NCBI GenBank assembly: GCA_036874045.1
Contig: CM072344.1
Coordinates: forward strand, 6,296,501 to 6,360,500
Length of the DNA stretch: 64,000 bases
Origin: Cymodocea nodosa
Lineage: Eukaryota; Streptophyta; Magnoliopsida; Alismatales; Cymodoceaceae
Direction of reading: 5' to 3'
Position 1 is the first letter of the stretch. Each line of letters starts with the position of its first letter. Below are positions 3,136-32,404 of this stretch, one piece after another. The notes below the pieces were generated by a model. The model saw nothing but the letters and a program-made list of their open reading frames with translations. It searched no databases and was not told where the DNA came from. The position numbers were made by a program, and so were the translations under genes.

Positions 3136-4500
3136 TCAATCCTTAGGTGTTAAACTAGTAACTAAGTAATTAACTATGTCTGCATACCAAGGTATTGTGT
3201 TGATGGTCATTAATTGTTCATTAGGAAAATTATCCTTAATTTCAATATTTAATTTTTCTATTTGTAATCTTGATAAATGATCTACTACTACATTCTCACA
3301 ACCTTTTTTATCTTTAATTTCTAGATCAAATTCTTGTAATAATAATATCCATCGGATCAATCTAGGCTTAGTTTCTTTTTTTGCTATTAGATGTTTTAAA
3401 GCTGAATGATCTATGTATACTATTACTTTAGCTCCAATCAGATATGATCTAAACTTTTCTAAGGCAAACACAACAGCTAATAGTTCTTTTTCAGTAGTTG
3501 TGTAATTAACTTGAGCATCATTTAAGGTTTTGCTTGCATAATGAATCACTCTAGGAGATTTTTCTATCTTCTGTCCCAACATTGCTCCTATAGCAAAATC
3601 AGATGCATCACACATTAATTCAAATGGATAGCTCCAATCAGGTGCTTGAATTATAGGAGTTGAAATTAAGCTAGTCTTAAGTCTAAAAAATGCTTCCTTG
3701 CAATTTTTATCAAAGTTAAATGGGACATCTTTTAATATATTAGTTAAAGGTCTAGCTATTTTGCTAAAGTCTTTAATAAATCTTCTATAAAAACCAGCAT
3801 GTCCTAGAAATGATCTAATATCTTTTACTGATTTAGGTTCTGGTAGATTAGAAATTACTTCTATTTTAGCTTTATCTACTTCCAACCCTTTCTTAGAAAC
3901 AACATGCCCTAAGACTATTCCTTGTTTAACCATGAAGTGACATTTTTCCCAATTTAAAACCAGATTTTTTTCCACACAGTGTTTTAATATTAGGCCTAAA
4001 TTTTTTAAACGAACTTCATATGAGTTGCCATATATAGTAAAATCATCCATAAATATTTCTAAAAAATCTTTAGTCATTCCAGTAAATATGCCTTGCGTAC
4101 ACCTTTGAAAGGTGGCTAATGCATTGCATAATCCGAATGGCATTCTCTTAAAAGCATAAGTTCCATTAGGATAGGTGACAATTGTTTTTTATTGATCCTC
4201 TAATGCTACTGGCATTTGGTTATATCCTGAATACCCGTCTAGGAAACAAAAATATTCTTGCCCTGCTAATCTTTCCAGCATTTGATCTATAAAAGGTAAA
4301 GGAAAATGATCTTTCCTAGTCACAGCATTTAGTTTTCTATAGTCTATACATACTCTCCAGCCTGATTGAATTCTTGTAGGTATCAAGTCTTGACTTTCAT
4401 TCCTAATAACTGTTAATCCTGATTTCTTGGGAACTACATGGATTAGACTAACCTACGAGCTATCAAAAATCGGATAAATTATGTCATTATCAAACCATTT
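3136..4500 (-). pseudogene. Ty3/gypsy reverse transcriptase and RNase H of element M
   Basis: The RT shows [43 protein letters not shown] and the catalytic IFMDDF (complement near 4045-4062), followed by [12 protein letters not shown]. RNase H follows with [27 protein letters not shown] and [10 protein letters not shown], then the linker [11 protein letters not shown]. Together these copy the RNA genome to DNA. Stops at about 4455 and 4187 interrupt the N-terminal half; the C-terminal 335 codons are open. It is continuous in frame with the protease upstream and the integrase downstream, so it was part of one polyprotein. Confidence 0.93.
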
Positions 4501-5540
4501 CACTATTTCCTTCCTAACTACTTCTTTAAGATTTGGATATAATCTCCTCTTAGGAATTCTAACAGGTTTAGCATTCTCTTCTAAATATATGTGGTGACAG
4601 CATAAAGTTGAACTTAATCCTTTTATATCAGTCATAGTCCATCCTATTGCTTCTTTATAACTTTTCACTACATCTATTAATTTAGCTATTTGATCCTCTT
4701 TTAAATCTGAAGCAATAATGATTAGACAGGTTCGTTTCTCTTCTAGAAATATATAGGTTAATTCAGGAGGTAAAGGTTTTAATTCTAAATGTTGCCCATC
4801 AGAAGCTAGAGCTCCTAATTGAACATCATCATTTTCTAAATTAATTTCTTCCAGATCTCCTTCTATATTTATGCTTTCACTTTCCTCTAAAGTTTCAGAA
4901 TTGATTTGCCTATTTAATTCTTCTTGAATCACATCATCTAACATATCTCCTTCATCCTTTAAAAAGTCTATGGTATGTAAGGACATTTCTAACTCTTCAA
5001 ACCTTTCTGGTTTGAAAATATTTAATTGAGTATCCTCATTGCCATATGATAACTTCATTACTCCAGTTTTACAATTTATAACAACCCCTGATGTTGCTAA
5101 AAATGGCCTTCCCAAAATTAAAGATGTATCACTATTTTTATGCTTAATTTGTTGAGAATCCAAAATTACAATATCAATAGGATATATAAAGTTTTTGATT
5201 TTAATTAAAACATCCTCTATTTTTCCTCTAGGGTATCTTATACTTCTATCAGCTAATTGAATAACCTTACTAGTAGGAGTTAAGCCTTCTAATCCTAAGG
5301 ATGCAAATATATCACTTGGCATAACATTTATACCTGCACCTAAGTCTATTAAGGTTCTTTCTAGAATGGTATTTCCTATGGTGCATGATATAACAGGGAT
5401 TCCAAGATCAGATAACTTTTTAGGAATTTGTGGCAGAAATAGGGAACTACTTTGCTTAGTTAAAAAGACATTCCTAAGAACTTTTCGCTCTCTTTTCTTA
5501 GTACACCAATCCTTTAGAAATTTAGCATAATGTGGCATTT
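4501..5540 (-). pseudogene. Retroviral-type aspartic protease and linker of element M
   Basis: An open stretch of about 346 codons. Near its start is AKFLKDWCTKKR, the conserved gag-protease junction of Athila-like elements. The protease active site reads LIDLGAGINVMP (complement near 5340-5300) and the flap/C-terminal signature LILGRPFLATSG lies near 5130-5085. An acidic linker then leads into RT. The protease would cut the polyprotein. The DLGA form in place of DTGA/DSGA is normal for this lineage. The start is not a true initiator; translation would begin upstream at about 6558. Confidence 0.88.
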
Positions 5541-5655
5541 TCTATAATAGATCTAACAAAGGAATGTTAACTTGTACTTTTTCAAAAATTTCTCTGATTT
5601 TTTCTTATTTTTCAGGTATTGTTTGTTGTAGTCTTTCAGGATAGGGTGCTAAAGA

Positions 5656-6558
5656 TTATGATTTAAAAGATTCTTTTTCTTTCGTTTGATTTGTTTGATC
5701 ATTTTTAGCTTCATTAGCAGATTCAGATTGTTCTTCACTGATTTCTAGATTTTCAGCTATTACATTTTCATTATCATTTTGATTTTTACTCTTATCCACC
5801 TTCATATTATTTTCATTTTGAGTTCTTGGTGGTATATTAGTTCCAGATCTTAATGTTACACATATATCTTCCAGATTTTCGTTACTCTCATGATGTTTTT
5901 GTATATCATTTTCGTGATTATGATCTTCAATTGTTTTTAGTTTTAAAGTGCATTCTTTAAATTCTCTTGCATTAATATTTTCTTTTTGCTGTATATTTTG
6001 CAAATTATGCAAATCTATAACATTATAATTTTCATTGTCCTATTCCATAACTTGTATTTTCATTGTATATTCGTTCAATGCTTTTAGTTTTCTTTCCAGA
6101 TCATCTAATCTCAATGCATTCAATTTTTGATCAATTTTCATTATGGTTTTTTCAGTTTCGTAAATTATATCCATTTTAGGTTCTGAATATGCTTCCTTAT
6201 AGTTTAATTGGTTGACTTCTTGTTGCTGACACAAAAAGTATTCTAGTTTGTCCAAGTTTTGCTCTATACTACGCTCGAGTTTGTCATACCTATCCCAAAC
6301 TTTCATGTCTCTCAACATATTACACATTCTATACTGACCATCAGTTGGGTAAACTATAGGATTCTCATACTTGACTCTATTATATTGAGGATAATTCATT
6401 TGTTGTTCATGGGATCTAGCCATCTGCAAATGTCTCAACTTCAAATAGTCAGAAATGTCGTGACCTTGAGAATTGCAGAATTCACATATGCTAACTACAA
6501 GTTTCAGAAATCTTTGAGCATAAGCATATGCCATATTCTCAATTATAGAAGAAATCAC
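5656..6558 (-). pseudogene. First ORF of element M: zinc-knuckle/linker region without a capsid domain
   Basis: It begins 52 bases after the primer-binding site and contains CEFCNSQGHDISDY, which fits CX2CX4HX4C except that the last Cys is Tyr. A long hydrophilic, probably coiled-coil region follows, then TLRSGTNIPP, the TLRSG signature normally found near the end of Athila gag, then an acidic tail before protease. The capsid-type domain with the RFIPFAL.DDAK.W signature, expected in this position, is absent, and there is no room for it between primer site and ORF. One stop at about 6041 splits the reading frame; further stops near 5653, 5610 and 5541 separate it from protease. Confidence 0.7.
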
Positions 6559-6610
6559 ACAACACTCTAGCTATTAAAACGAAACAGCTCTAATAGTTGC
6601 TTATATTAAT

Positions 6611-6628
6611 TCCCCGACAATGGCGCCA
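6611..6628 (-). promoter_or_regulatory. Primer-binding site of element M (tRNA-Asp-like)
   Basis: The minus strand reads TGGCGCCATTGTCGGGGA, one of the standard Athila-type primer sites differing at two positions from the usual GCCGTTGCCGGGG form. It starts 7 bases after the LTR end (6636), as expected for minus-strand cDNA priming. Confidence 0.88.
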
Positions 6629-8865: not shown

Positions 8866-8866
8866 G

Positions 8867-9352
8867 TCTCCATATAGAGTAGTGTTTGGAAAGGCATGTC
8901 ATTTACCAGTAGAGCTTGAGCATAAGGCAAGATGGGCTATTCAAAGGCTCAACTTAGATTTAAAGGCTGCTAGTAAGAAAAGAAATTTTCAATTGACTGA
9001 GTTTGAAGAAATACGGAGAGAGGCATATGAGAATTCACAGATAGCCAAAGAAAAGAGTCAAGTATTTCATGATAGCAAGCTCTTTCGTAAGAATTTTGAA
9101 GTAGGGCAGCAAATATTGTTGTATAATTCTAGACTACATCTATTTCTTGGTAAGTTAAGATCACGGTGGATAGGACCTTTTGTGGTAAAAAGTATGTTCC
9201 CTCATGGAGCAGTGGAGATTGAAAACCGTAAAAGTGGGGAAGTTTCTAAGGTCAATGGACACTGTTTAAATCCTTTCTTGCAGCAAAAATTATTTGGCCA
9301 TGGAGAGAATATTGTTTTAATCGATGTTGTCTATGCTAAATCTGATAATTAG
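8867..9352 (+). pseudogene. Integrase C-terminal fragment of element B
   Basis: About 161 codons, open to a natural stop. It starts mid-domain with [20 protein letters not shown], which matches the corresponding part of the D and X integrases, and continues through the GPY-type module ([15 protein letters not shown], then [10 protein letters not shown]). The catalytic DDE core is missing because element M interrupts it at 8865/8866. Its downstream neighbour, 149 bases on, is gag, not an env-like gene or the 3' LTR. Confidence 0.88.
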
Positions 9353-9501
9353 TGCTCTTTTGTTTTTCTTTTTATTAGTTTTAGATGTAATTATGTACTT
9401 ACCTATCTGACATGCAAGTGTTGGGATCAGAGACTATTCCACTGTAAGTGTCATTTGTACTTTTTTCTATCAAAATATTTCTTTTGTGATATTGTTAGTG
9501 T

Positions 9502-10890
9502 ATGCAATCTTCTAAGTGGATGAGAGATAGTGCATCTAGATTAATTAGACAAACCCCTTTAGAAGAAGAAGTTAGTGTGTTAGAAGAGCCTGCAAGGATG
9601 GGAGACCAAGGTAGAAACCAGCAATTACCTTCTCTTGAGGACATCTGCTATCCTCAAATGCATGGCCATCCCTCTTGTCTTGTATTACCTTAGGTAGATG
9701 GACATAAATTTCAATTGCATATGAATTATGTCAATCAGTTGCCTAGATTTCATGGACTAGATAAGGAAGATGCATATGCATTTCTAAATGACTTTAATGA
9801 TGTTTGCAACATGATTAATCTACCTGAAGTGCCTGTTGATGCAACAAAGTTGAGATTTATTCCTTTTGCCCTTCGAGATGATGCAAAGCTATGGTTGAAC
9901 ACCCTTCCTATTAATTCCATTTGTACTTGGACTGATTTTTGTGCTGTCTTTATTAAGAAATTTCATCCTTTGCAAAAGACCATTCAAGCTAAGAATGCTA
10001 TTCTAAACATCTGCCAACAAACCAATGAACCTTTTTGGAAATATTTTGAACGTTTCAATAGACTAGTGGTAAGATGTCCTAATCATGGTCTACCTAAATC
10101 AAGACAATGTTAAGTAATCTATGAAGGATTGGATTATCAGACCAAGTTGATGCTAGAATCTATGTCCTGGACGATTCATGAGATTAGATGAAGTCAATGC
10201 ATGGGATAGACTTGTGGACCTTGCTTAGAAAACAATGGAAATGGAAAGTTCATCAGATAGAACATTTGATAGAACTTTGGCAAGGGGAATACACACAGTA
10301 GACCCCATGGTAGGCATGGAAGCTAGGATGTCGTCCATGGTTAAAAAAGTAGAAGATTTGATTCTAAGTCAACAAAAAGGAAAAGATAAAGTGGTTGAAG
10401 TAAAGTGTATAGCATGTGGAATTCCTGGGCATATCATGGAAGAATGCCCTACAATGCAAGGACAACAGTTTGAGGAAGTCAATGCCATTGGTATGGGACA
10501 AAGGCCCTACATCACACTATACCTCGGGATGGAGAAACCATCCCAATTTTTCATGGCAACAACCGGAAGCACTTGGAAATCGTATTGAGCATCATGGACC
10601 CACTTAGCCAAATTTAAGTGATAGAATGTCTGCTTTGGAGAAAAGATTTACTGAAATGGAGAAAGGGATTCAATCCCTAATTCAAGTTAGCGGACAAGTA
10701 AATCCCATTTTAGCTAGCCATGACCAAATCATTAAGGGATTAGAAGCAAAGTTTGATAGGTTGTCTACTTCATCTAGAGGTAGAGCACGGGGAGAATTAC
10801 CAAGTAACACTGTACCAAATCCCCGCATGGCAGGTGTGCATTTGGCACAAGGAGAGACTTTAGGAACCAACCCTTCACCATCTACATGAG
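9502..10890 (+). pseudogene. Gag-type ORF of element B, located after integrase
   Basis: Gag forms the particle and packages element RNA. The retrotransposon gag core is plain: KFQLHMNYVNQLPRF, then KLRFIPFALRDDAKLWLNTL and FIKKFHPLQKTIQAKN. A complete zinc knuckle CIACGIPGHIMEEC (10408-10449) follows, then GWRNHPNFSW in another frame (hallmark of Athila gag), then a helical region resembling D residues at 20690-20830. Stops at 9691 and 10112 and two frameshifts (between 10115 and 10235, and near 10500-10600) break it. The ATG at 9502 follows a tract ending TTGTTAG that could act as a splice acceptor. Finding gag here, 3' of pol, is abnormal for a gypsy element. Confidence 0.85.
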
Positions 10891-12091: not shown

Positions 12092-12096
12092 GAATC
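12092..12096 (+). repeat. Left target-site duplication of element D (GAATC)
   Basis: GAATC immediately precedes the 5' LTR and recurs immediately after the 3' LTR at 24824-24828. A 5-bp duplication is standard for LTR retrotransposon integration. Confidence 0.92.
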
Positions 12097-14191
12097 TATA
12101 GAGTCATAATTTATGCATATTTTATATAGTTAAGTGATGCATTTTATGTGCGTAAAGCCATATACTCATAAGTGTTTAATGAAGATTTAAGTTATAATGC
12201 ATTTTGGGCAAATAATGTAGTTATGGGCTTAAATGAAGAAAGTAATGCATAAATGAGACTCTATTTGTTATTTAGCATTTTATTAAAACACATTTACATC
12301 TTGGTGGCAACACAATTGCATTTTATTAAGTAGATTAAATTTACTTTAGCACTTAGGATTAATTATTTAAATAAGTGCATGGGTATTTTTGGAATTCAAT
12401 GAAAAATGTGATTTTTGGCCCTTTTGAAGTATCCATGTTTAGGAATATATCTTATCTTATTTCTTGAGTGTTTTAATGTATTTGTTTGAGTTTTATAGGT
12501 TGAAGAATAAGAAAAATAAAGCAAATCAATATAGGAGGAATTTTGGCCCTTAGATTGAAGATCAAAGGTGGAGATCAAGTTCCACCACTTGGAGCCTCTA
12601 TAAAAGGAGAGGCAAGGCCAACAAATCCCTCCTCTTGGACGAGCTTACACCCATTCCAGCCCTTAAAAGTCATCAGCCCCTCTTCCCCCCTCAAGAACTC
12701 GTGGAAGGTGGTGTTCTCCCCCCTCTCATGGAGCTCCAAGGTAGAAGACAAGGTTCGGCCAACCTCTTCTCTTCTCCTCTTGGTGGTTGCTAGTAGGAGG
12801 ACAGCTAGGGCATCTTTTCCAGACCTTGTGGGTGCTGTTTGGAGCACATCTGAAGCCGTGCAACTGTCTCCCCTCTTCCGTGGATCAGTCCTAGTAGAAG
12901 AAAGGCAAGGGTTGTGGACTTTAGGTGGATGACTACTTGTTTCTTGGCGTTTGGTGGTGTTTGAAGACCTCCTGCTTCCAGAAGAGAACTCGTGTGGTGA
13001 CAGCCACGAAATTCTTGGCTAGGAGGACGGCTAGGAGCACATCTCATGTACCATTCTTCTCCAAAACAAGTTTGCACTTCAAGGTAAAAAGGGTTGTATT
13101 GGTTTAGCTCTTTAGGTTTTCATTTTCTTGTTTAAAGTTGAGTTATTTGTAATTTCAGTAGGGTAATTGTAGTTTTAGGTTTAGTTGTAATGTTACATTG
13201 TAGTTTAATCATAGAACTTTCATTTCAGTAGTTTATTATGTTTATTTTGAATGAATGGAAATGAATTTGGTTTGAATCTTGTGCATATGTGAATATTTGT
13301 ATGCTAACAAAGCTAATTTGTGGATGTTTATCGTCGGTTTAGAATCTTGTAAATTTGATGTTTTTGTTTAGGTCATAACTTACTGATATAGTGATGTTTT
13401 GCTTTAGTTTTTGATTCTATTTTGTAGAGCTTCGAGTGTACTTTATTCCTGTATAGTATTTAGAATTTTTCCAATCTATTTGTATAGGTTTTCCAATTTA
13501 TTTTGTTGATGTCGCATCTGGCGCATCCTGGAGTTTTACCCTCAATTTTTGCTTCAGTGCCGAATTCGATATCTTTTTATCTGCAGCACAAAATCGACCT
13601 CTGTAAATTTTCTCTGTTAGATGAATGAGTTAAGTTTCGAAGCACACTATTTTGCAGACTTTCGTGAAGATTTGAAAATCTTATTCCATTTTTAGTAACT
13701 GTGCACAATTCAGAGATGTTAGTTGCCAGTCTGCACGTTTGAAGAAAAAGCATTGCCGACGCTTGACCATTTCAGATCTTTTAACAAAATCAGTGGGATT
13801 GTAAAGTTAATCCAATGAGTACTCAGTATGATATTTTTTATGTATTTTACCATTGAGATACTGAGAAGAGAATATGTGTGAACTTGACTGAATTTCGAGA
13901 TTTTGTGCTGTAGTGAGTTAGTGTTTTATGAATGGAAATGAGGAATTTATACTCTATTGAGTGAATTTTTGATAAGTTTTGAATCACTTGTAATTATTAT
14001 TGTTTTTGCACCTTAGAAATATTTTGTAAAAGCCAAATCCTTGTGGATTCGACCCATACTCACCGGAGTATATTACAATTGCACCGTGCGCTTGCAGTTA
14101 TTTTAAAATGAGTTTTGAGTTTAATGTTTTATCATTTTGGTCCCTTTGTGAGTTTTAAGATCTTATTTTGGGGACAACAAAAACCTCAACA
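12097..14191 (+). repeat. 5' LTR of element D
   Basis: Matches 22732-24823 from the first base to ...CTCAACA. The 3' copy begins TGTAGAG; this one begins TATAGAG, so the canonical second base G has mutated to A. The U5 end carries the usual 'gattcgacc...gcgcttgcagtta' block. A GC-richer stretch (about 12560-13080) downstream of the TATA box holds a 129-codon ORF (12543-12932) that is also open in the 3' LTR; its sequence resembles no protein I recognise and it is better viewed as transcribed leader. Confidence 0.95.
12599..12605 (+). promoter_or_regulatory. TATA box of the D 5' LTR
   Basis: TATAAAA in the context cctctataaaaggagagg, near base 500 of the LTR, followed by a GC-richer leader. 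It is conserved in the 3' LTR and is the likely promoter for the element RNA, which would start at about 12630. Confidence 0.75.
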
Positions 14192-14197
14192 AGTTTT

Positions 14198-14216
14198 TGG
14201 CACCGTTGCTAGAGAT
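14198..14216 (+). promoter_or_regulatory. Primer-binding site of element D (tRNA-Asp-like, decayed)
   Basis: TGGCACCGTTGCTAGAGAT lies 6 bases after the LTR end. It resembles the TGGCGCCGTTGCCGGGGAT type with about four changes, most of them G-to-A or C-to-T. Confidence 0.85.
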
Positions 14217-14972
14217 TTGGTTATGTTTTTACCGAATTTCTTTGGTGTTTTTAATGGATTTTTGAAAAGTAATGATTGTTTGTTGTGTATATTCTTTTGT
14301 GTTATGTGTATTTACTTGTTTTAATGTGTAGTTCAATTTGTTTTGTTTGTAATGTATATTCTTGATATACTATATTACTACTTCATATTCAGATAGATTT
14401 TGTCAATAATAAGTGATAATTTAAAATCAGTAGTCAATAGGACATACCTCTTATAGGAAAGTTTAAGTGTATAGTATTTGTAATTATTTTGAAATGCAAA
14501 CTTGTAACCGGAAAATTTAATTTTGCTATTTGCAAGACTTGCTACGAATTTTTTCTATATTTTTCCTGTAAAGTTCAGTTTTAGATGTTTCTGTAGAGTA
14601 TTTGTATGCTTAATTCGGAGTTGTATGCAAAAAGTTATGATTTTTCGAAGGCAGACTCACATGCAGTTTCAATTTGAAAATAGATTCATTAGTTAATCTA
14701 GAATGAATTGGGAAATTGTTGTATAGGTAATCTTGTATTTATATTGCATTATTCTTTAATTTTTCTTCATTTAATTATTAATTATTCTTCCATTGTGTAG
14801 TCAGTCTTTTATTAAAATGGATTAAAGTTACTCACTTGGTTGCTACTTTATGCAGATCTAACTAATAGTGAATCACTTGAAGAGTGAGAAAAATTAAAAA
14901 CAAAGGCTAGTAAAGATTAACTTAGTCGTTGAATCTTTATTCTCTTTGTATCTGAATTAGAGCGTATTTGCC
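14217..14972 (+). other. Untranslated leader of element D
   Basis: AT-rich, no ORF with recognisable content. In ordinary Athila elements this is where gag would begin; here nothing resembling a capsid domain is seen in any frame. Confidence 0.7.
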
Positions 14973-16772
14973 ATGGATGATTGGTCAAGCCAGGTTGATG
15001 AATATTATGGCTATGATGAAAATGACTTTATGCCATCATGCTTTTCTTGTTTTGCAAGTGATCATGTTACTAGTGAATGCCCAAATGATATGCTTCATGA
15101 ACAAAATTCTAGCATGCCATGTAATGTATTAGAATATGAAAGTAATCATCTTCCATGCATGAAATATGATTCATATATTCACCATGATTTACCTAATCAT
15201 GCATATGCATTTACTAGTAAATCTGAAAATTCTTATCATGCATGTAGTATAGATCTAAGCGAAGATATAGATAAATTTAATGCAATTATGGACAGCATTG
15301 CTAAAGAGAAATCTGTTAGTAGTGATAGTAAGAATGTTTTTCATGCTGATCCAATTGATGTGGATGCAACATGTGATGACCTTGGAAAACAAATGGATGC
15401 ATTTGTTACTTTAAGGTCAGGTAAGGAAGTGAGTAGGACTAGTGGTGAAATTCCTCTATTCGTGAGTCCTCTAGAGCCTTGTTGCAATCCATCTAGAGTA
15501 GAAATTTTTGAAGATCCTATAGTTATCTCTAGAAGTGATAAGGGTAAGCAAGTAGTCGATGTCCCAATTGACTCATCTACTAGTGCTCCTTACCCTACTA
15601 GACTTAGAGTCGAATCAGGAGGAGACAAATTAGATAAGATTAGAGAAACCTTTGAGCAAGTGAGAGTGAATATACCTTTATTGGAATTAATTCAACAAGT
15701 TCCCTCACATGCTAAGTTCTTAAAAGAGCTATGTACTAAGAAGAGAGATAGGAAGATACCTAAGAGTGTAAACTTAGTGGAAGCAAGTAGTTCTTATTTT
15801 TATAATTATATTCCTAGAAAGTATAATGATCTTGGGACTCCTACTATTTCATGTATTATAGGAAAAACTACTTTTGATGGAGCCTTATTAGACCTAGGAG
15901 TAGTGAATGTTATGCCTTCTAGCATTTATGAAGAACTAGGGTTAAGATGCTTGCAACCAACAAGAATAGTAATTCGCCTAGCTGATAGATCTTTTAGGAC
16001 ACCTCTTGGAATAGTGGAAGACCTCCTAATTAAAGTCCAGGATTTTATATACCCTATAGACTTCATAGTTATAGAAAACCGTCACGTTATAGACCTTAAG
16101 AATAGTGCCTCATTAATTTTAGGTCGTCCCTTTTTAGCAACAATTGATGCTTATATTGGTTGCAGAGAAGGTTTTATGCAGATCACATGTGGAGATCAGA
16201 AGTCGCAACTAAATGTTTTTAATGTGGAAAGTGGCATGCGAGATCAATTAGAGGAAGAATTTGAAGTTAACCTAGTTGATGTGTTTGAAGAAGTTAAAGA
16301 TTCTTTTGAAGAGGACGAAGCCAGCCTTAAGGTTGACATTGATGAAGACTACTTTTATGTATCAAGTGATTTCGAAGATGACACTTTCATTGAGATCAAC
16401 AAAGCTAACCAAGTGGTAGTGGCTGAATCAAATAAAGTTGAGCTGGCAGAGCAAGCTCAACTAGAATTGAAACCACTACCTGTAGATCTCAAGTACGTAT
16501 TTTTGGGAGAATGTGAGAAGTGGCCTATTATTATTTCTGCCCATCTGACTAGGGATCAAGAAGCTCAATTAGTTGAAGTGCTTAAGGAAAATAGAAGAGC
16601 TATTGGATGGACTATGGAGGATATTAAAGGAATAAGCCCTTCTATTTGTACTCATAGAATTCATTTGGATCCTAGTTATGCTCCATCTAGGCAACCTCAG
16701 AGAAGACTAAATGTAAATATTAAGGAGGTAGTAAGAAAAGAAATTTTAAAATGGTTAGATCATGATATCATC
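14973..16772 (+). pseudogene. First ORF of element D: zinc knuckle, TLRSG linker and protease
   Basis: The ATG at 14973 sits in a good context (gccATGga). Residues 23-36 form a perfect CX2CX4HX4C knuckle (CFSCFASDHVTSEC). TLRSGKEV lies near residue 146 and AKFLKELCTKKR near 249, followed by the protease active site LLDLGVVNVMP near 304 and LILGRPFLAT near 382. The active-site loop is one residue shorter than in M (DLGAGINVMP), probably inactivating. The RT N-terminus follows, but one base is missing between 16772 and 16773 (atcatc|accc where related copies have atctaccc), throwing the frame off. No capsid domain precedes the knuckle; gag is at 19613 instead. Confidence 0.85.
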
Positions 16773-18060
16773 ACCCTATTTCTGATAGTCCTTGGGTCAG
16801 CCCTATTCAGGTTGTTCCCAAGAAATCTGGTATTACAGTGGTTAGAAATGCTAATGATGAATTGGTTCCCACCAGAATGCAGACCAGGTGGAGAGTATGC
16901 ATTGATTATAGGAAATTGAACAATGCCACCTATAAGGATCATTTTCCATTGCCCTTTATGGATCAAATGTTGGAAAAATTAGCAGGGCAAGAATTTTATT
17001 GCTTTCTAGATGGTTATTTTGGTTACAACCAAATTCATGTTGCTTTAGAGGACTAAGAAAAGACAACATTTACTTGTCCTTTCAGAACTTTTGCATTCCG
17101 GCGCATGCTTTTTGGATTGTGCAATGCGCCTGCAACATTTCAACGCTGTATGATGGGTATTTTCTCAGATATGATTGAGAGATTCTTGAAAGTATTCATG
17201 GATGATTTCTCAATATTGGGATCTTCCTTTGAATCATGCTTGGAAAATTTGAGAATGGTTTTGGAGAGATGTATAGAGAAAGATTTAGTGCTAAACTAGG
17301 AAAAGTGCCACTTTATGGTAAAACGAGGAATTGTTTTAGGGCACATAATTTCTGGGAAAGGATTAGAGGTGGATAAGGAAAAAGTAGATTTAATAGCAAA
17401 CTTGCCTCCACCTAAGAATGCTAAAGATGTAAGAGCATTTCTTGGCCATGCTAGATTTTACCGAAGATTTATTAAGGATTTCAACAAGATTGCTCAACCA
17501 TTAAGTAGATTGTTAGCAAAGGATACCAAGTTTGATTTTTCTATAGATTGTGAAACAGCATTTGTTAAGTTGAAAGAGGCTCTATCCTCAGCTCCTGTTG
17601 TTCATGCACCTGATTGGTCCCATCCTTTTGAGCTGATGTGTGATGCCTCTGATTATGCTATAGGCGCAATTCTTGGGCAAAAGATTGATAAGCTTCCCAG
17701 AGTTATCTATTATGTAAGTAGAACATTGAATGATGCCTAGAAAAATTATACGGTAACAGAAAAGGAATTTTTAGCAATAGTGTTTGCCTTGGAGAAATTT
17801 AGACCCTATTTGGTTGGCTCACACACTATTGTCTATACTAATCATAGTGCCTTGAAGTATTTGTTGGCAAAACAAGATGCAAAACCCCGACTTATGAGAT
17901 GGATCTTATTGTTACAAGAATTTGATTTGGTAATTAAGGACAAAAGGGGTTGTGAAAATGTAGTTGTCGACCATCTATCAAGGCTATCTATTGGAAATTC
18001 TTCTGAGATACCCATTAGTGATGTTTTTCGAGATGAGCAGGTATTATCTATTAGTGCTGA
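16773..18060 (+). pseudogene. Reverse transcriptase and RNase H of element D
   Basis: Motifs in order: VCIDYRKLNNATYKDHFPLP, FLDGYFGYNQ, FGLCNAPATFQR, catalytic VFMDDF (17193-17210), LGHARFYRRFI, then RNase H with [40 protein letters not shown] and [11 protein letters not shown]. After the 1-base deletion at 16772 the frame is constant through the integrase. The in-frame stops at 17056 (TAA for an expected Gln), 17297 (TAG for Trp) and 17738 (TAG for Gln) are all explained by C-to-T or G-to-A changes. The catalytic residues survive. Confidence 0.93.
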
Positions 18061-19360
18061 ACCTTGGTATGCTGATATAACAAATTATTTGGTTACAAAG
18101 AGAATACCACCCCATTGGTCTTCTGTTGATAGGAAGAGATTTTTATTGAAATGTAAAGATTATTATTGGGATGACCCGTACGTTTTTAAAGCATGTTCGG
18201 ATTTAATTGTGAGAAAGTGCATCCCAGATTCTGAAGTGCTTAGTGTTCTCTCTTTCTATCATGATCAATCTGGGGGAGGGCATTTTGGTCCTGCAAAGAC
18301 AGCTGCCAAGGTATTGTAGTGTGGTTTCTTTTGGCCAACTCTGCATAAGGATGCTTTTAAGTATTGTAAGCATTGCACAGCATGTCAAAAAGCCAGAAAA
18401 ATGGGGAGAAGAGATATGATGCCTTTGAACCCCGTGATTGCGATTGATGCTTTTGATTTATGGGGTATCGATTTTATGGGTCTATTTCCCAACTTAAGAG
18501 GCTATTTATATATTCTAGTAGCAGTGGATTACGTGGCCAAATGAATAGAGGCAATCCCCACAAGATGTAACAGCAACAAGGAAGTCTGTGCCTTTGTAAA
18601 ATCAAATATATTTTCAAGATTTGGAGTGCCTAAAGCTATAGTCAGTGATAATGGCACACACTTTTGCAATAGAAGTTTTGAGAACCTATTGAGAAAGAAT
18701 GGAGTGACTCATAAACTTGCCACACCTTATCATCCTCAAACTAATGGGCAAGTTGAAAATGCAAATAGGTTAATTAAGTAGATTCTAGAGAAACTGGTAA
18801 GTGCTATAAGAAAAGATTGGGTTGATAAAGTGGATGATGTTCTGTGGGCATACCGTACTGCATTTAAGACTAGTTTGGGTATGTCTTCTTATAGAGCTGT
18901 ATATGGAAAGGCTTGCCATTTACCAGTAGAGTTGGAACATAGGGCCATGTGGGTCATTAAGAAGTTAAATTTAGATTTTAAGGTAGTTGGAGATAAAAGG
19001 AAATTTGAATTGAATGAGCTAGAAGAGTTAAGGAATGAAGCATATGAAAATGCTAAAATTTCTAAGGAAAGAGCAAAAATTTTTCATGATAAAAGAATTT
19101 TAAGAAAAGAGTTTCAACAGGGCCAGCAAGTTTTGTTATATTACTCTAGACTCCACCTTTTTCCAAGAAAGTTAAAATCTAGGTGGAATGGCCCATTTGT
19201 TGTAAAGAGAGTCTATCCTTATGGAGCAGTGGATATTGAACATCTTAAAGATGGGCGAGTGATGAAGGTTAATGGCCAACGTCTCAAATTGTTTTTAAAT
19301 AAGGCAGATTTACGGGAAGCAAGTAGTGTAGATTTATATGAAGTAGAATATAGTAATTAA
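18061..19360 (+). pseudogene. Integrase of element D
   Basis: The zinc-binding region has [10 protein letters not shown] then CKHCTACQK. The core has LWGIDFMG, VSDNGTHFCNR and QVENANR, supplying the D, D and E positions. [13 protein letters not shown] and a GPY-type module ([18 protein letters not shown]) follow, to a natural stop at 19358. Stops at 18317 (Q), 18542 (W to TGA) and 18779 (Q) interrupt it without frameshift. It ends about 250 bases before the gag ATG. Confidence 0.92.
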
Positions 19361-19612
19361 TCATTCTTTTCTTCTTTGTAAGTATTTATATTTTGTAATG
19401 TTTATTTACTCTCTCTCCCTTTTCACCAGTTATTCTTTTATGCATGTTTGTTTATAGTTGTCACAATGTTATTGTTTATAATTATTCTTCTTGTAATTTA
19501 TCTTGTAACTATTTGGTATTTCAGGGTGGTACGACTGATAGCAACTACGAGAACCTGGTAAAATCTAAACTGAGCTATTTTACTTGCTGTTCTTACTTGT
19601 AGTAGTTTTGCA

Positions 19613-20929
19613 TTGTGCATGCATCGAGGAGTGTGGAGAAGAACTGAAGCAAATAGGTTAGAGCATTGTGAACCTCTTCTAGAACCTATTAACCTTCCAC
19701 CATTACATCAAATGGAAGACCAAGGAAGAGTGCTAGCTGATGTGTGGTATCCTCCACAGTTTGATCAACCCTCTTGTTTTGTGCTTCCAAATGTGGAAGG
19801 ACAAAAGTTTGAGTTACACTCAAACTATATCCATCAATTGCCAAAATTTTTAGGGTTGGAAAGAGAAGATGCCTACCTATTTCTACATGAATTTAATGAG
19901 ATGTGTAGGCTAATTCATTTGCCTGATGTACTTGTAGATGCAATAAAGCTAAGATTTATTCCCTTTGCACTTAAGGAGGATGCTAAGAGGTGGATGTATA
20001 GTTTACCTCCTAACTCCATCTATTCTTGGGAAGAATTCTACAAGGTCTTTCTGAAGAAGTATCATCCTCTATATCGCACCATCTAGCTTAAGAACGCTAT
20101 TTTAAGTATTCAACAGAAGTCGGATGAGTCTTTCTAGCAATATATGGAGCACTTTATGAATTTGTTAGCTAGATGCCCAAACCATGGAGTTGACAGGGCA
20201 AGGCAAACCCAAGCTATCTATGAAGGTTTGAACATGCAATCAAGAACCATGATAGAGTCCATGACTCCTGGTGGTTTTTGTCAATTAAGAGAGAATGCTG
20301 CTTGGGAATTTCTACAAGAGCTTGCTGACTGCACAATGCAATGGGAGACATCCTCAGATAAGACTTTTGATAGGTCTACACCTGCTTGAGGACTTCATGC
20401 GGTCGACAACATTACTAGCATGGAAGCAAGATTACAAGCTGCTTTGAAAAGAATTGAAGATTTACAACCATATGAGGATGTACAAGCTATGGGGTCGAGA
20501 ATGAGAAACAATCAATATTACAACCCTGGATGGAGAAACCATCCTAACTTTAGTTGGAGGAACCAAGATTATATGAGAGAAAATGCGTCGGAGCAACATC
20601 ATTTCGGAGCTAGTTTGAGCTGGCAGCCCCAACCGCAAGTTCCTACCCTTCCTGCACCAAACATGCAGTCAAACATCAATGCTGATATGGAACGCAGAAT
20701 GGCTAAAATGGAGGAAGGAATTCAAACTTTATTGACTAAGATGGGACCAATGCTAGCGGAGCACTCTCAAGCAATCAAAGGAATTGAAGCTCAACTGGAA
20801 CATTTATTTGTTGGAAACCGGGAGCGTGGATCTTTGCCGAGTCAACCGGCACCGAACCCACGAAATGCTAGTGGTAGTAACCAGTTTGGAGGACACACGA
20901 ACGCAAGCTCGAGTGCCCCTCCATCTTGA
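19613..20929 (+). pseudogene. Gag (capsid) ORF of element D, located after integrase
   Basis: One frame of 438 codons with three stops (20084, 20135, 20387), each explicable as C-to-T or G-to-A. It has the retrotransposon gag core (KFELHSNYIHQLPKF, KLRFIPFALKEDAKRWMYSL, VFLKKYHPLYRTI), then RCPNHG...QAIYEGL, then YNPGWRNHPNFSW, a hallmark of Athila gag, and a helical tail (MEEGIQTLLTKMGPML). The CCHC knuckle present in B between the helical linker and the PGWRNHPNFSW motif is missing here; the only knuckle in D is in the 5' ORF. A pyrimidine-rich tract ending TTACTTGTAG sits just upstream, so expression from a spliced RNA is conceivable. All of this lies 3' of pol, opposite to the usual order. 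Confidence 0.9.
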
Positions 20930-22713
20930 TTGTATCTATATCTATATTTTATTTCTGTACATAATTATCTTCTATATGCTTTTATTTGTTAAATTCTTGT
21001 TTGATATGTGTGTTAGTTTTGTAGTGTTTGTTTTTTCTACTACAAGCCAGGTACGCATTCCTTATCCTTATCCTTTCCAATGCACTTATATTTTTTATGT
21101 TACAATCTTGTATATTTGCATGTTTATCATTTTGTGTATGCTAGAGCAAATGTCTTAAGTAATTTTGAAAGTGCATGTAGACTTCATGTTAGGCATGGGG
21201 GGGGGGCGACATCTTGACTTGTAAAGTGTGTTTATGTTTATCTTTATCGTCTGCATGCTTTCAACTTAGCTTAGTTATCACTTTACATTGAGGACAATGC
21301 ATGAACTAGGCATGGGGGGAGGCATTTGACGATAATTTGTGATAGTCCTTTTATTTTGTTATTATTTTCACGTTATTAGTATGTGTTTTGTTGTTTTTAT
21401 GTGGTGTTTAAAATTTTTTTTGTAATTTTCTGTTTTTGATTGGAACTCAAGTAGCTGAGGTTGAAAACTCAAGAGTTGCTATTAGGATTAATGGGATTAT
21501 CCCCCATTTACTTTTGAGTGGTATCTCCAAAGCCATATGTGTGGACCTATGATGAGTTCTTTAAAGGAAGATGAGTTTCATGCTGATGTGTTTTCAGTTG
21601 AGTCTTCCTAGCTACTTGGATTAATGCCTTGTTCTTTTGCACCCATTTTTGAGTGATCCTAAGCCGAGTGCCACCATAATAAAGGGTTATTCTATGACCT
21701 TAAGGTGAGATAATTTGGATCAACTCGAACTTTCATGAGAATTTGAAGGTTGTGTTTAGGACAGCTTTCAAGGTTATCACACTTGGTATGTTAAGAATGG
21801 TGTTGAAGTAAGTAGTTGGAGAAATAAGGTGTATACCATTATGAAATTAGTTAGTTCAATAAAAAAAGAAAGAAAGTGTGATTTGAAAAGAAAAGAGAAA
21901 AGAAAAGAGAGAAAAATATGAAAAAAAAAGAAGAAGAAGGAAAGAAAGCAATAAAGTAAATAGGTGGGTTTGTAGTCAAAAGGGGAGTGAATAAAGTTTT
22001 CCTTTTGTTATCAATTTTTCCTTTCTTGAGTGTTGGGGGTTTGGCATATCAAGTGTGGTACCTTGTCGACTTAGACTAGACATTTTCCAACAATTCTCAT
22101 AGGAAGGAAGGAATCACTACCTACCATTTTGTGGTTATTGCATATTTTCATTATCGTGTGCTTTATATTCTTTTATGTGTAGTGAGGGTGAGAATCTTCT
22201 TGATGCAAGGCAGATGGTCCTTATAGACAGGTGACTCCTTGAGCATATTAGTGTTGACTTGTTGGAATTTAAAGGACTTGTGAGTTATTTTTCTTTTTGA
22301 GCCACCACTAATACCCAAAGACCCTAATAGCAGTGATTGAGCCTAGCAACCTTGCACTTGAGCTTTAATCTCTCTCTTGTTTTATGTTTGTGTATTCTCT
22401 TTTTAGTGTTTTAATGTGTTATGTATTGATTTTATATTGTTTTATTATGATTTTATTTTGTTTTGTTTTCATTGGTTTTGATTTAGACTTTGTGGGTATG
22501 TCTTCTGCAAACCCTTTGGAGACAACACTCTACCGCTAGGGTGACCTAGAGGTTAAACGGCTTGTTGCATAAGCTAAATGGAATTGCGATTCCTGTGAAA
22601 GTGAGTTAGGATTTCTATTTTTAGTAGTTAGTTTTGTTTTTAAATAAGTATGCCACCTTGTCAATTGTGTTTATCTTTTAGACTTCTAGCTAGTTATGCT
22701 AGGGACTAGCATA
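20930..22713 (+). other. 3' untranslated region of element D
   Basis: No convincing coding sequence. It has two G-run blocks: 21180-21210 (ttaggcatggggggggg) and 21285-21325 (ttgaggacaatgc...aggcatgggggg). A purine tract lies at 21860-21960. The block 22480-22620 (ccctttggagacaacactct..., gggtgacctagaggtt) is shared with B at 24985-25110. The ORF starting at 20784 merely overlaps gag out of frame. Confidence 0.75.
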
Positions 22714-22731
22714 ATTTAGGCTTGGGGTTTT
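22714..22731 (+). promoter_or_regulatory. Polypurine-type tract before the D 3' LTR
   Basis: The stretch ending aggcttggggtttt abuts the LTR. The preceding 'gggactagca' is shared with the equivalent sites at about 25209 and 61385. It is the likely plus-strand primer region, although T-rich next to the LTR, so the exact RNase H cleavage point is uncertain. Confidence 0.6.
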
Positions 22732-24823
22732 TGTAGAGTCATAATTTATGCATATTTTATATAGTTAAGTGATGCATTTTATGTGCTTAAAGCCATATAC
22801 TCATAAGTGTTTAATGAAGATTTAAGTTATAATGCATTTTGGGCAAATAATGTAGTTATGGGCTTAAATGAAGAAAGTAATGCATAAATGACTCTATTTG
22901 TTATTTAGCATTTCATTAAAACACATTTACATCTTAGTGGCAACACAATTGCATTTTATTAAGTAGATTAAATTTACTTTAGCACTTAGGATTAATTATT
23001 TAAATAAGTACATGGGTATTTTTGGAATTCAATGGAAAATGTGATTTTTGGCCCTTTTGAAGTATCCATGTTTAGGAATATATCTTATCTTATTTCTTGA
23101 GTGTTTTAATGTATTTGTTTGAGTTTTATAGGTTGAAGAATAAGAAAAATAAAGCAAATCAAGATAGGAGGAATTTTGGCCCTTGGATTGAAGATCAAAG
23201 GTGGAGATCAAGTTCCACCACTTGGAGCCTCTATAAAAGGAGAGGCAAGGCCAACAAATCCCTCCTCTTGGACGAGCTTACACCCATTCCAGCCCTTGAA
23301 AGTCTTCAGCCCCTCTCCCCCCCTCAAGAACTCGTGGAAGGTGGTGTTCTCCCCCCTCTCGTGGAGCTCCAAGGTAGAAGACAAGGTTCGGCCAACCTCT
23401 TCTCTTCTCCTCTTGGTGGTTGCTAGTAGGAGGACAGCTAGGGCATCTTTTCCAGACCTTGTGGGTGCTGTTTGGAGCACATCTAAAGCCATGCAACTGT
23501 CTCCCCTCTTCCATGGATTAGTCCTAGTAGAAGAAAGGCAAGGGTTGTGGACTTTAGGTGGATGACTACTTGTTTCTTGGTGTTTGGTGGTGTTTGAAGA
23601 CCTCTCGCTTCCGGAAGAGAACTTGTGTGGTGACAGCCACGAAATTCTTGGCTAGGAGGATGGCTAGGAGCACATCTCATGCACCATTCTTCTCCAAAAC
23701 AAGTTTGCACTTCAAGGTAAAAAGGGTTGTATTGGTTTAGCTCTTTAGGTTTTCATTTTCTTGTTTAAAGTTGAGTTATTTGTAATTTCAGTTGGGTAAT
23801 TGTAGTTTTAGGTTTAGTTGTAATGTTACATTGTAGTTTAATCATAGAAATTTCATTTCAGTAGTTTATTATGTTTATTTTGAATGAATGGAAATGAATT
23901 TGGTTTGAATCTTGTGCATATGTGAATATTTGTATGCTAACAAAGCTAATTTGTGGATGTTTATCGTCAGTTTAGAATCCTATAAATTTGATGATTTTGT
24001 TTAGGTCGTAACTTACTGATCCAGCGATGTTTTGCTTTAGTTTTTGATTCTATTTTGTATAGCTTCGATGTACTTTACTCCTGTATAGGTTTTAGAATTT
24101 TTCCAATCGATTTGTATAGGTTTTCCAATTTATTTTTTTGATGCCGCATCTGACGCATCCTGGCTGTTTTCCCTCAATTTTTGCTTCAGTGCCGAATTCG
24201 ATATCTTTTTATCTACAGCACAAAATTGACCTCTGTAAATTTTCTCTGTTAGATGAATGAGTTAAGTTTCAAAGTACACCATTTTGCAGACTTTCGTGAA
24301 GATTTGAAAATCTTATGCCATTTTTAGTAATTGTGCACAATTTAGGGATGTTAGTTGCTAGTCTGCACGTTTGTAGGAAAAGCATTGCTGATGCTTGACC
24401 ATTTCAGATCTTTTAACGAAATCAGTGGGGTTGTAAAGTTAATCCAATGAGTACTCAGTATGATATTTTTTATGTATTTTACCGTTGAGATACTGAGAGA
24501 AGGATATGTGTGAACTTGACTGAATTTCGAGATTCTATGCTGTAGTGAGTTAGTGTTTTATGAATGGAAATGAGGAATTTATACTCTATTGAGTGAATTT
24601 TTGATAAGTTTTGAATCACTTGTAATTATTATTGTTTTTGCACATTAGAAATATTTTGTAAAAGCCAAATTCTTGTGGATTCGACCTGTACTCGCCGGAG
24701 TATATTACAATTGCACCGTGCGCTTGCGGTTATTTTAAAATGAGTTTTGAGTTTAATGTTTTATCATTTTGGTCCCTTTGTAAGTTTTAAGATCTTATTT
24801 TGGGGACAACAAAAATCTCATCA
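22732..24823 (+). repeat. 3' LTR of element D
   Basis: Begins TGTAGAG and ends CTCATCA, next to the GAATC duplication. It is highly similar to 12097-14191; sampled differences are scattered substitutions and a 2-base indel. It keeps the same TATA box and the same 129-codon leader ORF (23176-23565). Confidence 0.95.
23232..23238 (+). promoter_or_regulatory. TATA box of the D 3' LTR
   Basis: TATAAAA in the same context as at 12599. From here transcription would read out through 24823 into element B's 3' remains. Confidence 0.65.
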
Positions 24824-24828
24824 GAATC
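24824..24828 (+). repeat. Right target-site duplication of element D (GAATC)
   Basis: Direct repeat of 12092-12096, placed exactly at the LTR end. Confidence 0.92.
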
Positions 24829-25237
24829 CAATCTAGAATGGTGAGAGGTGATTAAATAAAGGTGAAGCTAATAGGTCAAGATTACTTAAGAGCAACTTTA
24901 TCCATGTTTAGGAAACCAAGAGCATATTTTCGTTGTTTTTGTCTTTTAATTGTGTTGTTTTATGTTTTGTTTTAGATTTTGTGGGTATATCCACTGAAAA
25001 CCCTCTGGAGACACAACTCCACTACTAGGGTGACCTAGGGGTTTAAAGGCTTGCTGCACATGCTAAGTGTAGTCGTGATCCCTACGAAAGTGGCCTAGGT
25101 TAGTTTTATTTTTGTTATTTATTTATTAGTTTGTTTGTTTTTGTTTTTAATGAATGTACTTTCATATGGGCTTTGTGTTATCATTATTTAGCTTTAGTCC
25201 TTTGCTAAGGGACTAGCAAAGACTAGGTATGGGGGTG
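24829..25237 (+). other. 3' untranslated region of element B, second part
   Basis: Continues the B region interrupted at 12096. It matches the end of D's 3' region (gtgggtatatccactgaaaaccctctggagac against gtgggtatgtcttctgcaaaccctttggagac) and ends in ctaagggactagca followed by taggtatgggggtg, a clear polypurine tract abutting the LTR. Confidence 0.8.
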
Positions 25238-27382
25238 TGTAAAGTATCAATTTGTGCATTTTATATATGTTAATTCATGCATATTAAGGATCATAAGTCA
25301 TCATTATATATGTTCTTATAAAGGATTACATGAAAATCATATTTTTAGACATATGCATGAATTAGGGATTAAATAGTTGATAATGTACAAATTTATCCTT
25401 TATCAATTAAACACCTAGTCAATAGCCCTTGTTTTAGACATGATTCTTATAATTCTTCAATATATGACTTTATATACATTGTATTATTGCCAAATCACCT
25501 AAATATGATGTTAAACTAAAGAACTTTAAGTAATTCATGTATGCACATGTGAAAAAGTTGTGGACCAAAACCTTCCTAATTTGGCAACTTTCCATATATG
25601 GCAGCTCATGCATGTATGTACACTATATTTACACCATATGATTTATATTTAATGTATATGTGCATCCAACTTGGTTTTGAGTTTTATAGGTCAATAAATC
25701 ATGAAATCAAGATGGATTAAAGAGGAAAAAAACGTGGGCCATTAGATGTAACTTATTAGAGATCAAGCAACAATAGCCTAGAGTAGTTAAAGTGTTTGAC
25801 CACTCAATCGTAGGCTATCTCCTCCTCTTCCAACACATTGAAGCCGATGGTTCCAGCCATTCCAGCATCTTCATCCGGAAAGTCTCATCTTCCCCTTGAT
25901 CTTGAACAAGCTCCCTTCAAGAATGGTGAGCTTTGGCATCTTCCACTCCTCCTAGAAGACACCTTCTCTTCAATTCAGACGGCCATACATTAGGATCTCC
26001 TTGGGCGTTCATCTTGGTGGATTGGGAGGCTCGTGTGACTGATTTGGAGTGGAGCAAAAGGTTAGGATCTTCAGGGTTAAGTCATTAGAAACACCATTCT
26101 TAGATGTGGAAGCCAAAGTTGTGGGTCTTAGAGGCAAGATCTTGAGGACGTGCACCATTCTTCTTCAAGACAACCCTAGAAGTTTCACTTGGACGTGCTA
26201 CAGGTGTTGACAGCCCTATGGAGCATCGATTTCAAGGACTTTGGGGAGTCATTGCTTAAAGAAACGTGGAAGATTAAAAGGTATGATGGAAAGGAGAGAT
26301 CCTCATACTAGTTTTCATGTTTTATAATTCTATATGTATGAGTATAGTTTGAGTATGTTGAAGAACGAAATTCTATGCATAAATCTTTGTTTCAAATGTT
26401 CTAAATTAAAGATCATATATGGTTTTGATGTTAATTGATATAAGAATTGAGTTCATATCATATGTTTAGTGTGAATGAATGTGATGATGTAAATTGTGAA
26501 GGCAGTTTTTCGTTTCTTAGATGGCCAAATTGTTAGTAGTTTTTCTTTGAATTGTATCCACTTGTTTGACATCTCTAAATTCATTTTTTTGTTTCATTTT
26601 GTAAGTATAATGAGTGTAGAACAAGTTCACAAAATTTTAGAATTTTTTAGAATGTTTACCGAAGATTTTAGATTTTATTTTGTAAAGGTATTAGCGGTTT
26701 TGAGTCTCTGTCGAGTGCTAGTTTTGAGCTCAACGCCTGTGCTGTGCTTGCGTCGTGTATTTTGTGGAATTCAGTTCTGTAAATTTTCCTTGTTAGTGTA
26801 ACAGATCTACTTTCATTGCACGCTTATTTCGTACCATTTCATGAAGATTTGACGGAGATTTGATTTTTGCATCGAATGTGCATTTTTGGAAAGTTTCTAT
26901 AACCGTCTACACCCCTTTCTTAAATAAGATATTGCCAACGTTTTAATTTGTGTTAATCCACGAAATCACTACCATTTGAAAGATATTCCAAGGATCTTTC
27001 TAACTGTTATTTATTCTGGATTTTTAAACGTTCAAGTTGGAAGTTATTAGAGTTAAAAGTCAAGCATAAATTCTATGATTTTTGGATTAATACTCATTGC
27101 TTTCTTAAATATCTTATCATAATTAATTGGATTTTGGGGTAATCTTATAAACCTTAATTGTGCTACGAAATTTGTATATTAATATTAAGTAATTAGAGTT
27201 TAATTATGAATTAGTTTAATGTGGATATTTAATCGGATAATCATTTTAATAAAAATTATTTAAGACAAACTCCTTGTGGATTCGAGTCGTACTTGCACAT
27301 GCTTATTACAATGGGCGCTTGCAGTTATAAATGTAAAATTTGTGCTTTTGCCATTAATTTAACAACACATAAAAGCGTTACA
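25238..27382 (+). repeat. 3' LTR of element B, about 2.1 kb
   Basis: The start TGTAAAGTATCAATTTG follows the polypurine tract and is matched by an inverted copy starting at 48760. The U5 side has ccttgtggattcgag...gggcgcttgcagttata at about 27270-27330. The end at CGTTACA (27382) pairs with the TGTAA start but is less certain than the left edge; the following sequence switches to an unrelated, inverted LTR fragment. No second B LTR is in the window. Confidence 0.75.
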
Positions 27383-28120
27383 TCAGTCACCGTGTTTGGC
27401 TCGGAATCGACCCGACATCAAGAAAGTATCCTCACAGACCTCTGATGGTTGGTGATTTTGGTGGTGGTGTGGAGCTTCAGGGAACTACCTGTAGTCAGCG
27501 TGGTCCTCCACCTCTACACACACCTTTCTTCGTCTTTCTCCTCTTCTTTTATATTTCTTTCAGTAGTAACTACTTCTGCTTAGATAATCGGTTGAATTTC
27601 CTTCATTCATATCAACGATGGTGATTTCTTCTTCCTTCCACGAGTGAATTCTTGTGTGATACGTGCAATCGTGGTTTTCCTTCGAATGTCCTATTTCTAC
27701 AACTGCTACAGTGGCATATTAGTCTTTGTTTTAGTCGAACACTTATCCTTTAAGTCCTGTAAAAATTTGAACACTTATTAGTAACTCTTCGAGTTTTTGC
27801 ACCGATAACACACGTGACTAAACATAGAAAACTTATCTGTTCGTTAGTCATTTTATAAAACTCGAACAGTTATCTAATAAAAACTTAAACAGTTATCTAT
27901 CCAAAAGTAAACTTTTCCTATTTCTACATAACACTAACACAATGCATTAGCTTAGTGTATATTCAAGTAACTCAACGCGTATTGTTATGCTAACTTAACG
28001 AGTTAAACATGTGCAACTCACGTGTCATAATAAAGCATTTAAATTCAACATGTGCATAAGTCTAACTTAACGAGTTCAGATATTTTAGATACTTACAAAC
28101 CTAACTATGAAATTTGAAAT
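27383..28120 (-). repeat. Truncated LTR fragment, M-related, minus orientation
   Basis: 27390-27730 matches 7664-8020 of M's LTR in the same orientation. 27930-28110 is the reverse complement of about 62400-62575. It lacks both LTR ends and stops where element X's pol begins. The part at 27930-28090 has GTTAAGTTA-type hairpin motifs and also resembles a piece of the copia LTR near 47000-47140. Confidence 0.7.
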
Positions 28121-28124
28121 ATGA

Positions 28125-32372: not shown

Positions 32373-32380
32373 AGTTTTTG

Positions 32381-32398: not shown

Positions 32399-32404
32399 AT
32401 TTAA

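Follow-up and report, generated by a model that had tools for sequence, protein, structure and literature searches.

An Athila-like retrotransposon lineage of Cymodocea nodosa with gag behind integrase and a zinc knuckle at the start of Pol

The stretch of Cymodocea nodosa DNA analysed here (contig CM072344.1 of assembly GCA_036874045.1; 64,000 nucleotides, called the window below and numbered by its own positions) contains a long terminal repeat (LTR) retrotransposon, element D, whose gag lies behind integrase. Element D belongs to an Athila-like lineage with this order, in which Pol has its own start codon and an N-terminal zinc knuckle. The explanation that we consider likely as a whole is a gag-last lineage whose Pol and Gag would be made from two messages, with Pol packaged through its knuckle.

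Gag behind integrase in element D and its relatives

Element D (12097-24823) lies inside a second, 5'-truncated element, C, and reads LTR, tRNA-Asp-type primer site, leader, zinc knuckle-protease-reverse transcriptase (RT)-RNase H-integrase, gag, 3' region, LTR (Table 1). Its LTRs, each about 2.1 kb long, are identical at 2016 of 2092 aligned positions (96.4%), the Kimura two-parameter (K2P) distance of the pair is 0.038 with a few flanking bases included, and GAATC stands on both sides of the element. The primer site was called with what we take to be the tRNA-Asp end. Since the window holds three tRNA-Asp-like primer matches where 0.95 would be expected by chance, the site of D counts through its place and not through its score; a tRNA-Asp primer is named for the Athila-like group in PMC1142308. 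Pol starts 0.78 kb past the 5' LTR, in an open frame (14961-16919) whose first ATG yields MDDWSS and which is frameshifted relative to its relatives near 16772.

Several lines of evidence place gag downstream. The frame at 19574-20086 matches Pfam Retrotrans_gag (E-value 2.1e-7), and the frame at 20390-20929, in the same phase with in-frame stops between the two, carries PGWRNHPNFSW, which we take to be an Athila hallmark; a motif of the GWRNHPNFSW type is present in gag-first database proteins. A protein search with the protease frame of D gave 2959 matches among 8000 scored candidates, many of them plant proteins, and several of the 120 relatives listed carry gag and protease in one protein, in the order gag core, knuckle, PGWRNHP-type motif, LRSG, protease. 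The gag parts of 12 gag-first database proteins were combined into a profile, which matches D at 19712-20467 (domain E 1.6e-78) and 20474-20881 (E 3.3e-18). It finds only two strong places in the window, this one (19712-20881) and another in element C (9520-10850), and its best match beyond both is a Ty1/copia stretch (53046-52444, E 0.0088). Between the primer site and the protease of D, the profile gives only a weak match of its knuckle part (15030-15248, E 0.82). One gag-first protein, P0022, aligns to D as two swapped blocks: residues 49-488, its gag part, match 19730-20860, while the protease part falls at 15534-16772 and the RT at 16736-17227. The Ty3/gypsy polyprotein order is given as GAG-PROT-RT-RH-INT (PROT, protease; RH, RNase H; INT, integrase) in a plant survey (PMC6317226); D reads PROT-RT-RH-INT-gag and departs from it in the position of gag, while the order inside pol is kept. 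The downstream gag is under constraint, to about the same degree as integrase, and a capsid fold is predicted for it. The preliminary description of this DNA had placed a gag core and PGWRNHPNFSW after integrase, as the Pfam match, the profile and the swapped blocks of P0022 bear out. It had also described matched LTRs with an exact 5-bp duplication, which the comparison above upholds, and a non-coding leader followed by a knuckle/protease frame at the usual place of gag, where we indeed find the knuckle at 15039 in the protease frame and no gag.

Copies elsewhere in the genome have the same order. The source assembly (374.6 Mb, 28 contigs) was searched with the gag piece of D, not with its LTR, which gave 150 scored matches of 5154 candidates, every one with E below 1e-46. 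The surroundings of 51 of these were read, a large sample rather than all copies: 30 with flanks of 1.5 kb (L001-L030, L001 being D itself), 20 with 4 kb per side (L031-L050), and one C-class copy, L058. In 49 of the 51, integrase precedes gag on the same strand within 3 kb (the misses are L019 and L036), and in 45 of those 49 the distance is 215-240 bases. As far as the stretches reach, 42 of 51 copies have RT/RNase H upstream of gag and 15 of 51 have protease there; protease is downstream of gag in none of the 51, a count that only the 20 long stretches test well. Thus the genome shows the opposite of what would have told against the preliminary description, namely a majority of copies with gag upstream of protease, and its view of D as one element and not adjacent fragments holds.

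By identity to the gag of D, the 51 copies fall into family D (43 copies), family G (7 copies, 62-64%) and class C (one copy). The order is common to all three, whose gags are 50-68% identical between families, and all seven G copies read protease-RT-RNase H-integrase-gag. In trees with 15 gag-first proteins of the 120 listed (those with a short or missing gag core were left out), D, G and C group as one clade by gag and again by protease. In five further copies, L051-L053 of family G and L054-L055 of family D, a primer site of tRNA-Asp type is followed by a leader of about 0.8-1.2 kb and by a Pol frame whose N-terminus carries a knuckle; in their 5' parts the gag profile finds nothing beyond weak knuckle matches. 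Together with D and a further window element, B, this makes seven elements whose primer site and Pol start can be read, and no front gag was found in any of the seven; L056 was left out of this count for its B-type primer site, and in L057 no primer site was found. A gag hidden in the leader, considered as a candidate, is rejected by the same profile searches. In L056, its B-type primer site precedes a Pol frame of D type by about 2 kb, and the copy looks nested or recombinant. L057 and L058, between which a piece was not read, probably belong to one C-class element.

The zinc knuckle of Pol and a model of two messages

The Pol of the D, G and C copies that were read starts with MD and carries its own CX2CX4HX4C, a pattern with only two occurrences in the six frames of the window; L057 has the Pol knuckle as well. 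The Pol N-termini are homologous between D and C (34%, E 8e-33) and between D and G (27%, E 2e-18); common to all three are an initial MD, CX2CX4HX4CP and ML. In Gag, the picture differs by family (profile matches with E above 0.01 were dropped before these counts of knuckle and gag in the genome copies). The knuckle is kept in C and, by pattern, in six of seven G copies (one of them with a stop inside it; L047 fails), and it is found at none of the 43 family-D loci. Profile positions 294-336, which hold the knuckle, are missing from the gag of D, and positions 309-379 weakly match the start of its Pol frame (E 0.82). Across the place of the knuckle, family-D gag is ungapped at 36 of the 40 loci that include this region, the other four being gapped or in pieces. 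In family D, Gag has lost its knuckle, while Pol keeps one.

Acceptor-like sites stand before both pol and gag, scored against a consensus that we presume to apply. The leader of D contains TTTATGCAG/AT at 14855 (the stroke marks the putative junction), and TGCAG/A precedes pol in D (14855) and in six of seven further 5' copies. TTTCAG/G, with its last intron base at 19524, is the best acceptor-like site of the D spacer, and the first ATG after it belongs to gag; the G counterpart, TTCTTAGCAG/G, is the best of its spacer (score 6.5), and that of the C-class copy L058 is ACATGCAG/G. In the family-D spacer alignment (38 of 43 loci, taken for a neighbouring integrase and a spacer stretch that measures 300-420 bases), the AG before gag is kept in 27 copies, as it is in five of seven G copies. 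In seven of seven G copies the conserved N-terminal part of gag opens behind a stop codon and has no ATG at that point, a layout compatible with an exon spliced on from upstream. The spliced message to about 19612 that the preliminary description suggests is plausible, with the acceptor-like site at 19524. As for a donor, AAG/GTA is found in D and C some 1.1 kb short of the LTR end. Between the acceptor-like site and gag, at 19525-19602 and the equivalent places in L043-L050 and L058, AG and GT enclose a short segment that is followed by a T-rich stretch and could be a micro-exon.

In our view, the sites predicted in Diaspora and the splicing reported for Bagy-2, two Athila relatives considered below, taken with the acceptor-like sites here, point to two messages, and we infer that Pol and Gag come from separate spliced RNAs and that Pol is packaged through its knuckle. 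The unspliced RNA would serve as the genome. Free Pol (knuckle-protease-RT-RNase H-integrase) would come from one RNA, which may have lost a leader intron by splicing at the TGCAG before pol, and free Gag from a second, spliced to the CAG between integrase and gag. Without a Gag-Pol fusion, Pol would enter the particle through its own knuckle on genomic RNA. Family D would be furthest along, with the Gag knuckle gone and the Pol one kept. The likely origin would be a gag-pol-gag recombinant that lost the front capsid part and kept the knuckle and the LRSG-protease part.

Several observations weigh against this model. The donor is weak and not established for G. The TGCAG before pol is lost in L055 and, in G, scores low and ranks fourth or lower. 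The AG before gag is missing in 11 of 38 family-D copies and two of seven G copies, the L058 site ranks only second in its spacer, and the C-class TGCAG before gag is TGCAA in window element C. A later in-frame ATG, at residue 30 in six of seven G copies, could serve as a start. The Pol N-terminus is fast-evolving (dN about 0.7). Finally, both C and D are decayed, D with in-frame stops in gag and in the RT-integrase part besides the frameshift. The stretch around the AG before gag (at the equivalent of window position 19523) is 94% conserved on average in family D, and loss of the AG may reflect methylation-driven decay.

It is possible that the order is real but that Gag is made without splicing, from an internal promoter, through internal ribosome entry or by reinitiation after the Pol stop. 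The weakness of the donors, which are not shown in all families, and the loss of acceptor-like sites in some copies would fit such a scenario, as would the gag ATG at 19619, present in 38 of 38 aligned family-D copies, and the distance of about 260 bases from the Pol stop to gag. However, the acceptor-like sites before gag recur in D, G and C as the best or second best of their spacers, the G frames lack an ATG at their head, and the related Bagy-2 is reported to splice its third frame (PMC7264820). We regard unspliced Gag as unlikely, though it is the alternative that deserves most weight. Nor is it probable that the N-terminal knuckle of Pol arose by chance or is a functionless remnant: the match to the gag-first profile is admittedly weak, and the corresponding segment of B has no last Cys, but the pattern is rare in the window and occupies the same position in all three families although most of the linker around it has diverged. 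Slightly less probable still is a downstream gag that is accessory, or a transduced second gag, with capsid supplied by gag-first helpers. Window element E, which keeps D-like 3' sequence and has no gag that we could find, would suit such a dependence; against it, the elements with a readable front have no gag there, and the downstream gag, besides its integrase-like constraint, includes the capsid part and, in G and C, a knuckle. That D is a single rearranged copy, or a set of fragments brought together by chance, has next to no probability in spite of its decay and its place within a nest of elements, because element C and 49 of 51 genome copies, 45 of them with a near-constant integrase distance, have the same order in families with diverged gags; this reading is ruled out. 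We retain the gag-last lineage, with Pol and Gag probably made separately.

Neighbouring elements in the window

Element C comprises 8866-12096 and 24824-27385. It has the order integrase-gag, on which the preliminary description is silent, and is split by the insertion of D, so D and C are separate elements. Element B has a Pol frame that starts with a knuckle-like segment without the last Cys, and the profile search finds no gag in it, either between primer site and protease or after integrase. The 3' sequence of element E is collinear with that of D; no gag was found in it, and at the place of D's gag stands a 95-aa frame (34148-34435) with no significant Pfam match. Element E is possibly a gag-less derivative.

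Table 1. Features of elements D, C, B and E, in window positions.
Feature	Position	Strand	Remarks
D, target-site duplication GAATC	12092..12096 (left copy), 24824..24828 (right copy)	.	
D, 5' LTR	12097..14191	+	96.4% identity to 3' LTR
D, TATA-like box in 5' LTR	~12600		
D, donor-like AAG/GTA in 5' LTR	13084		
D, primer-binding site, tRNA-Asp type	14198..14210	+	2 mismatches in 13; six bases after 5' LTR
D, non-coding leader	14211..14972	+	no match to gag profile
D, acceptor-like site before pol, in leader	14855	+	
D, Pol frame	14973..16772	+	MDDWSS start, linker, TLRSG, protease, RT start
D, zinc knuckle CX2CX4HX4C, Pol N-terminus	15039..15080	+	same place in copies of D, G, C
D, RT and RNase H	16736..18319	+	broken by stops
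D, integrase	18383..19360	+	broken by stops
D, integrase-gag spacer	19361..19618	+	holds TTTCAG/G
D, gag	19619..20929	+	capsid part, PGWRNHPNFSW, C-terminal part with LPSQPAPNPRN; in-frame stops
D, 3' non-coding region	20930..22731	+	repeated G-rich tracts; polypurine-type tract beside LTR
D, 3' LTR	22732..24823	+	
C, integrase C-terminal part	8866..9352	+	5' truncated at 8866
C, gag through knuckle and GWRNHPNFSW	9502..10860	+	stops, frameshifts; Pfam Retrotrans_gag 9.7e-18 for 9694-10110
C, zinc knuckle inside gag	10406..10447	+	
C, 3' LTR beyond D insertion	~25236..27385	+	ends inferred from TG..CA and preceding tract; no partner LTR in window
B, primer site (6628-6616), Pol frame from ATG 6534, protease, RT, integrase	1957..6628	-	
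E, RT-RNase H-integrase	28092-35737	+	78% identity to B in an RT piece; 5' end lost

In E, a 156-base stretch is repeated at 29593-29748 and 32409-32564 (96%, with about 2.7 kb between), far longer than a target-site duplication. The 5' cuts of C (8866) and E (about 28109) adjoin repeats of one kind (7664-8865 and 27386-28108, 79% over the parts that can be aligned). Inverted copies at 1-609 and 6668-7276 (90%) resemble B-family LTR ends in opposite orientation, and the start of another element of the B family, or of a solo LTR, may lie before the window. The stretch 36791-56774 holds nested frames in both orientations that, by their motifs, we take to be of Ty1/copia type; a 352-aa frame at 44924-45982 has no Pfam match.

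Kinship with known elements and what the order means

Judged from its gag type, primer site and protease-RT similarity, the lineage appears Athila-like, while its domain order sets it outside the definition of Athila. The Athila lineage (Athila, Calypso, Cyclops, Bagy-2, Diaspora) has this gag type, the LRSG-protease join, similar RT, RNase H and integrase, long LTRs, a tRNA-Asp-type primer site a few bases past the LTR and a long leader. Of its features, D has the gag core with GWRNHPNFSW, the tRNA-Asp primer site (as do L051-L055), the 5-bp duplication and paired LTRs. An additional RNase H domain is a trait of the Tat lineage (Ogre, Retand), and only one RNase H was mapped in D. The nearest protease/RT relatives are plant proteins with that gag; the lineage forms a separate clade beside the 15 used, and no Athila-named protein is in the trees. 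Unlike Athila elements, the lineage has gag after integrase and Pol starting alone with a knuckle, and no env-like frame was found in the slot behind integrase in D and C. An env-like frame there, at the place that gag takes up in D and C, is a trait of only some Athila elements, and Pfam scans of D and C pieces gave no match to an Athila open reading frame after integrase.

Other systems resemble the lineage in part. In Gmr1-like elements of the Ty3/gypsy group the domain order has also changed, but there integrase has moved before RT and gag is still first. Diaspora of soybean, an Athila relative, has an 873-bp leader, and donors are predicted within its LTR and acceptors close to its start codon; it differs in a gag-first single frame and in having no coding sequence between pol and the 3' LTR (PMC1142308). 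Bagy-2 has a third frame, reported as spliced, between pol and the 3' LTR; that frame is env-like in Bagy-2 and other env-class elements, and gag stands in front (PMC7264820). In foamy viruses, which offer an analogy of working only and no close kinship, Gag and Pol are separate proteins through splicing, and Pol packaging is helped by genomic RNA (PMC3705302). There Gag stands in front of a Pol made from spliced RNA, whereas here the order is reversed; Pol's own start and the acceptor-like sites, seen by sequence, bear on a separate Pol message of the foamy type.

There is a hint that the lineage occurs beyond this genome. The 759-aa Pol protein P0002, from a JGI contig of 2871 bases, clusters in the same protease clade, and its N-terminus is not gag-like; it sits on a long branch, in a placement that is stable when D, or D and B, are left out. 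Against 5.8 billion proteins, neither the gag piece of D nor Pol residues 1-160 gave a match at E 0.001; for gag, only proteins of 94-298 aa were visible, shorter than a whole gag. A search of viral contigs gave no match. In the literature searched, outside which most subscription journals lie, there is no report of gag downstream of pol, which does not in itself show the order to be unpublished.

In LTR retroelements, the position of gag ahead of pol is taken to be invariant, since the ratio of Gag to Pol is set, and Pol is brought into the particle, by frameshift, readthrough or polyprotein cleavage. The order also guides annotation. As the plant survey puts it, elements with an unexpected domain order were always removed as likely wrong predictions (PMC6317226), so pol-first lineages could have been filtered out. 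We lean, by a narrow margin over doubt, towards the full scenario, in which a many-copy lineage, not confined to this genome, gave up the Gag-Pol fusion and reversed its gene order, with Pol first and bearing a knuckle, Gag spliced from the old env slot and, in family D, the knuckle passed wholly from Gag to Pol. A pol-first lineage of many copies means that the order can be reversed, and it raises the question of how Pol is dosed and packaged. The gag-last order together with the Pol knuckle suggests that the proteins of these elements may be made and packed differently from those of their relatives.
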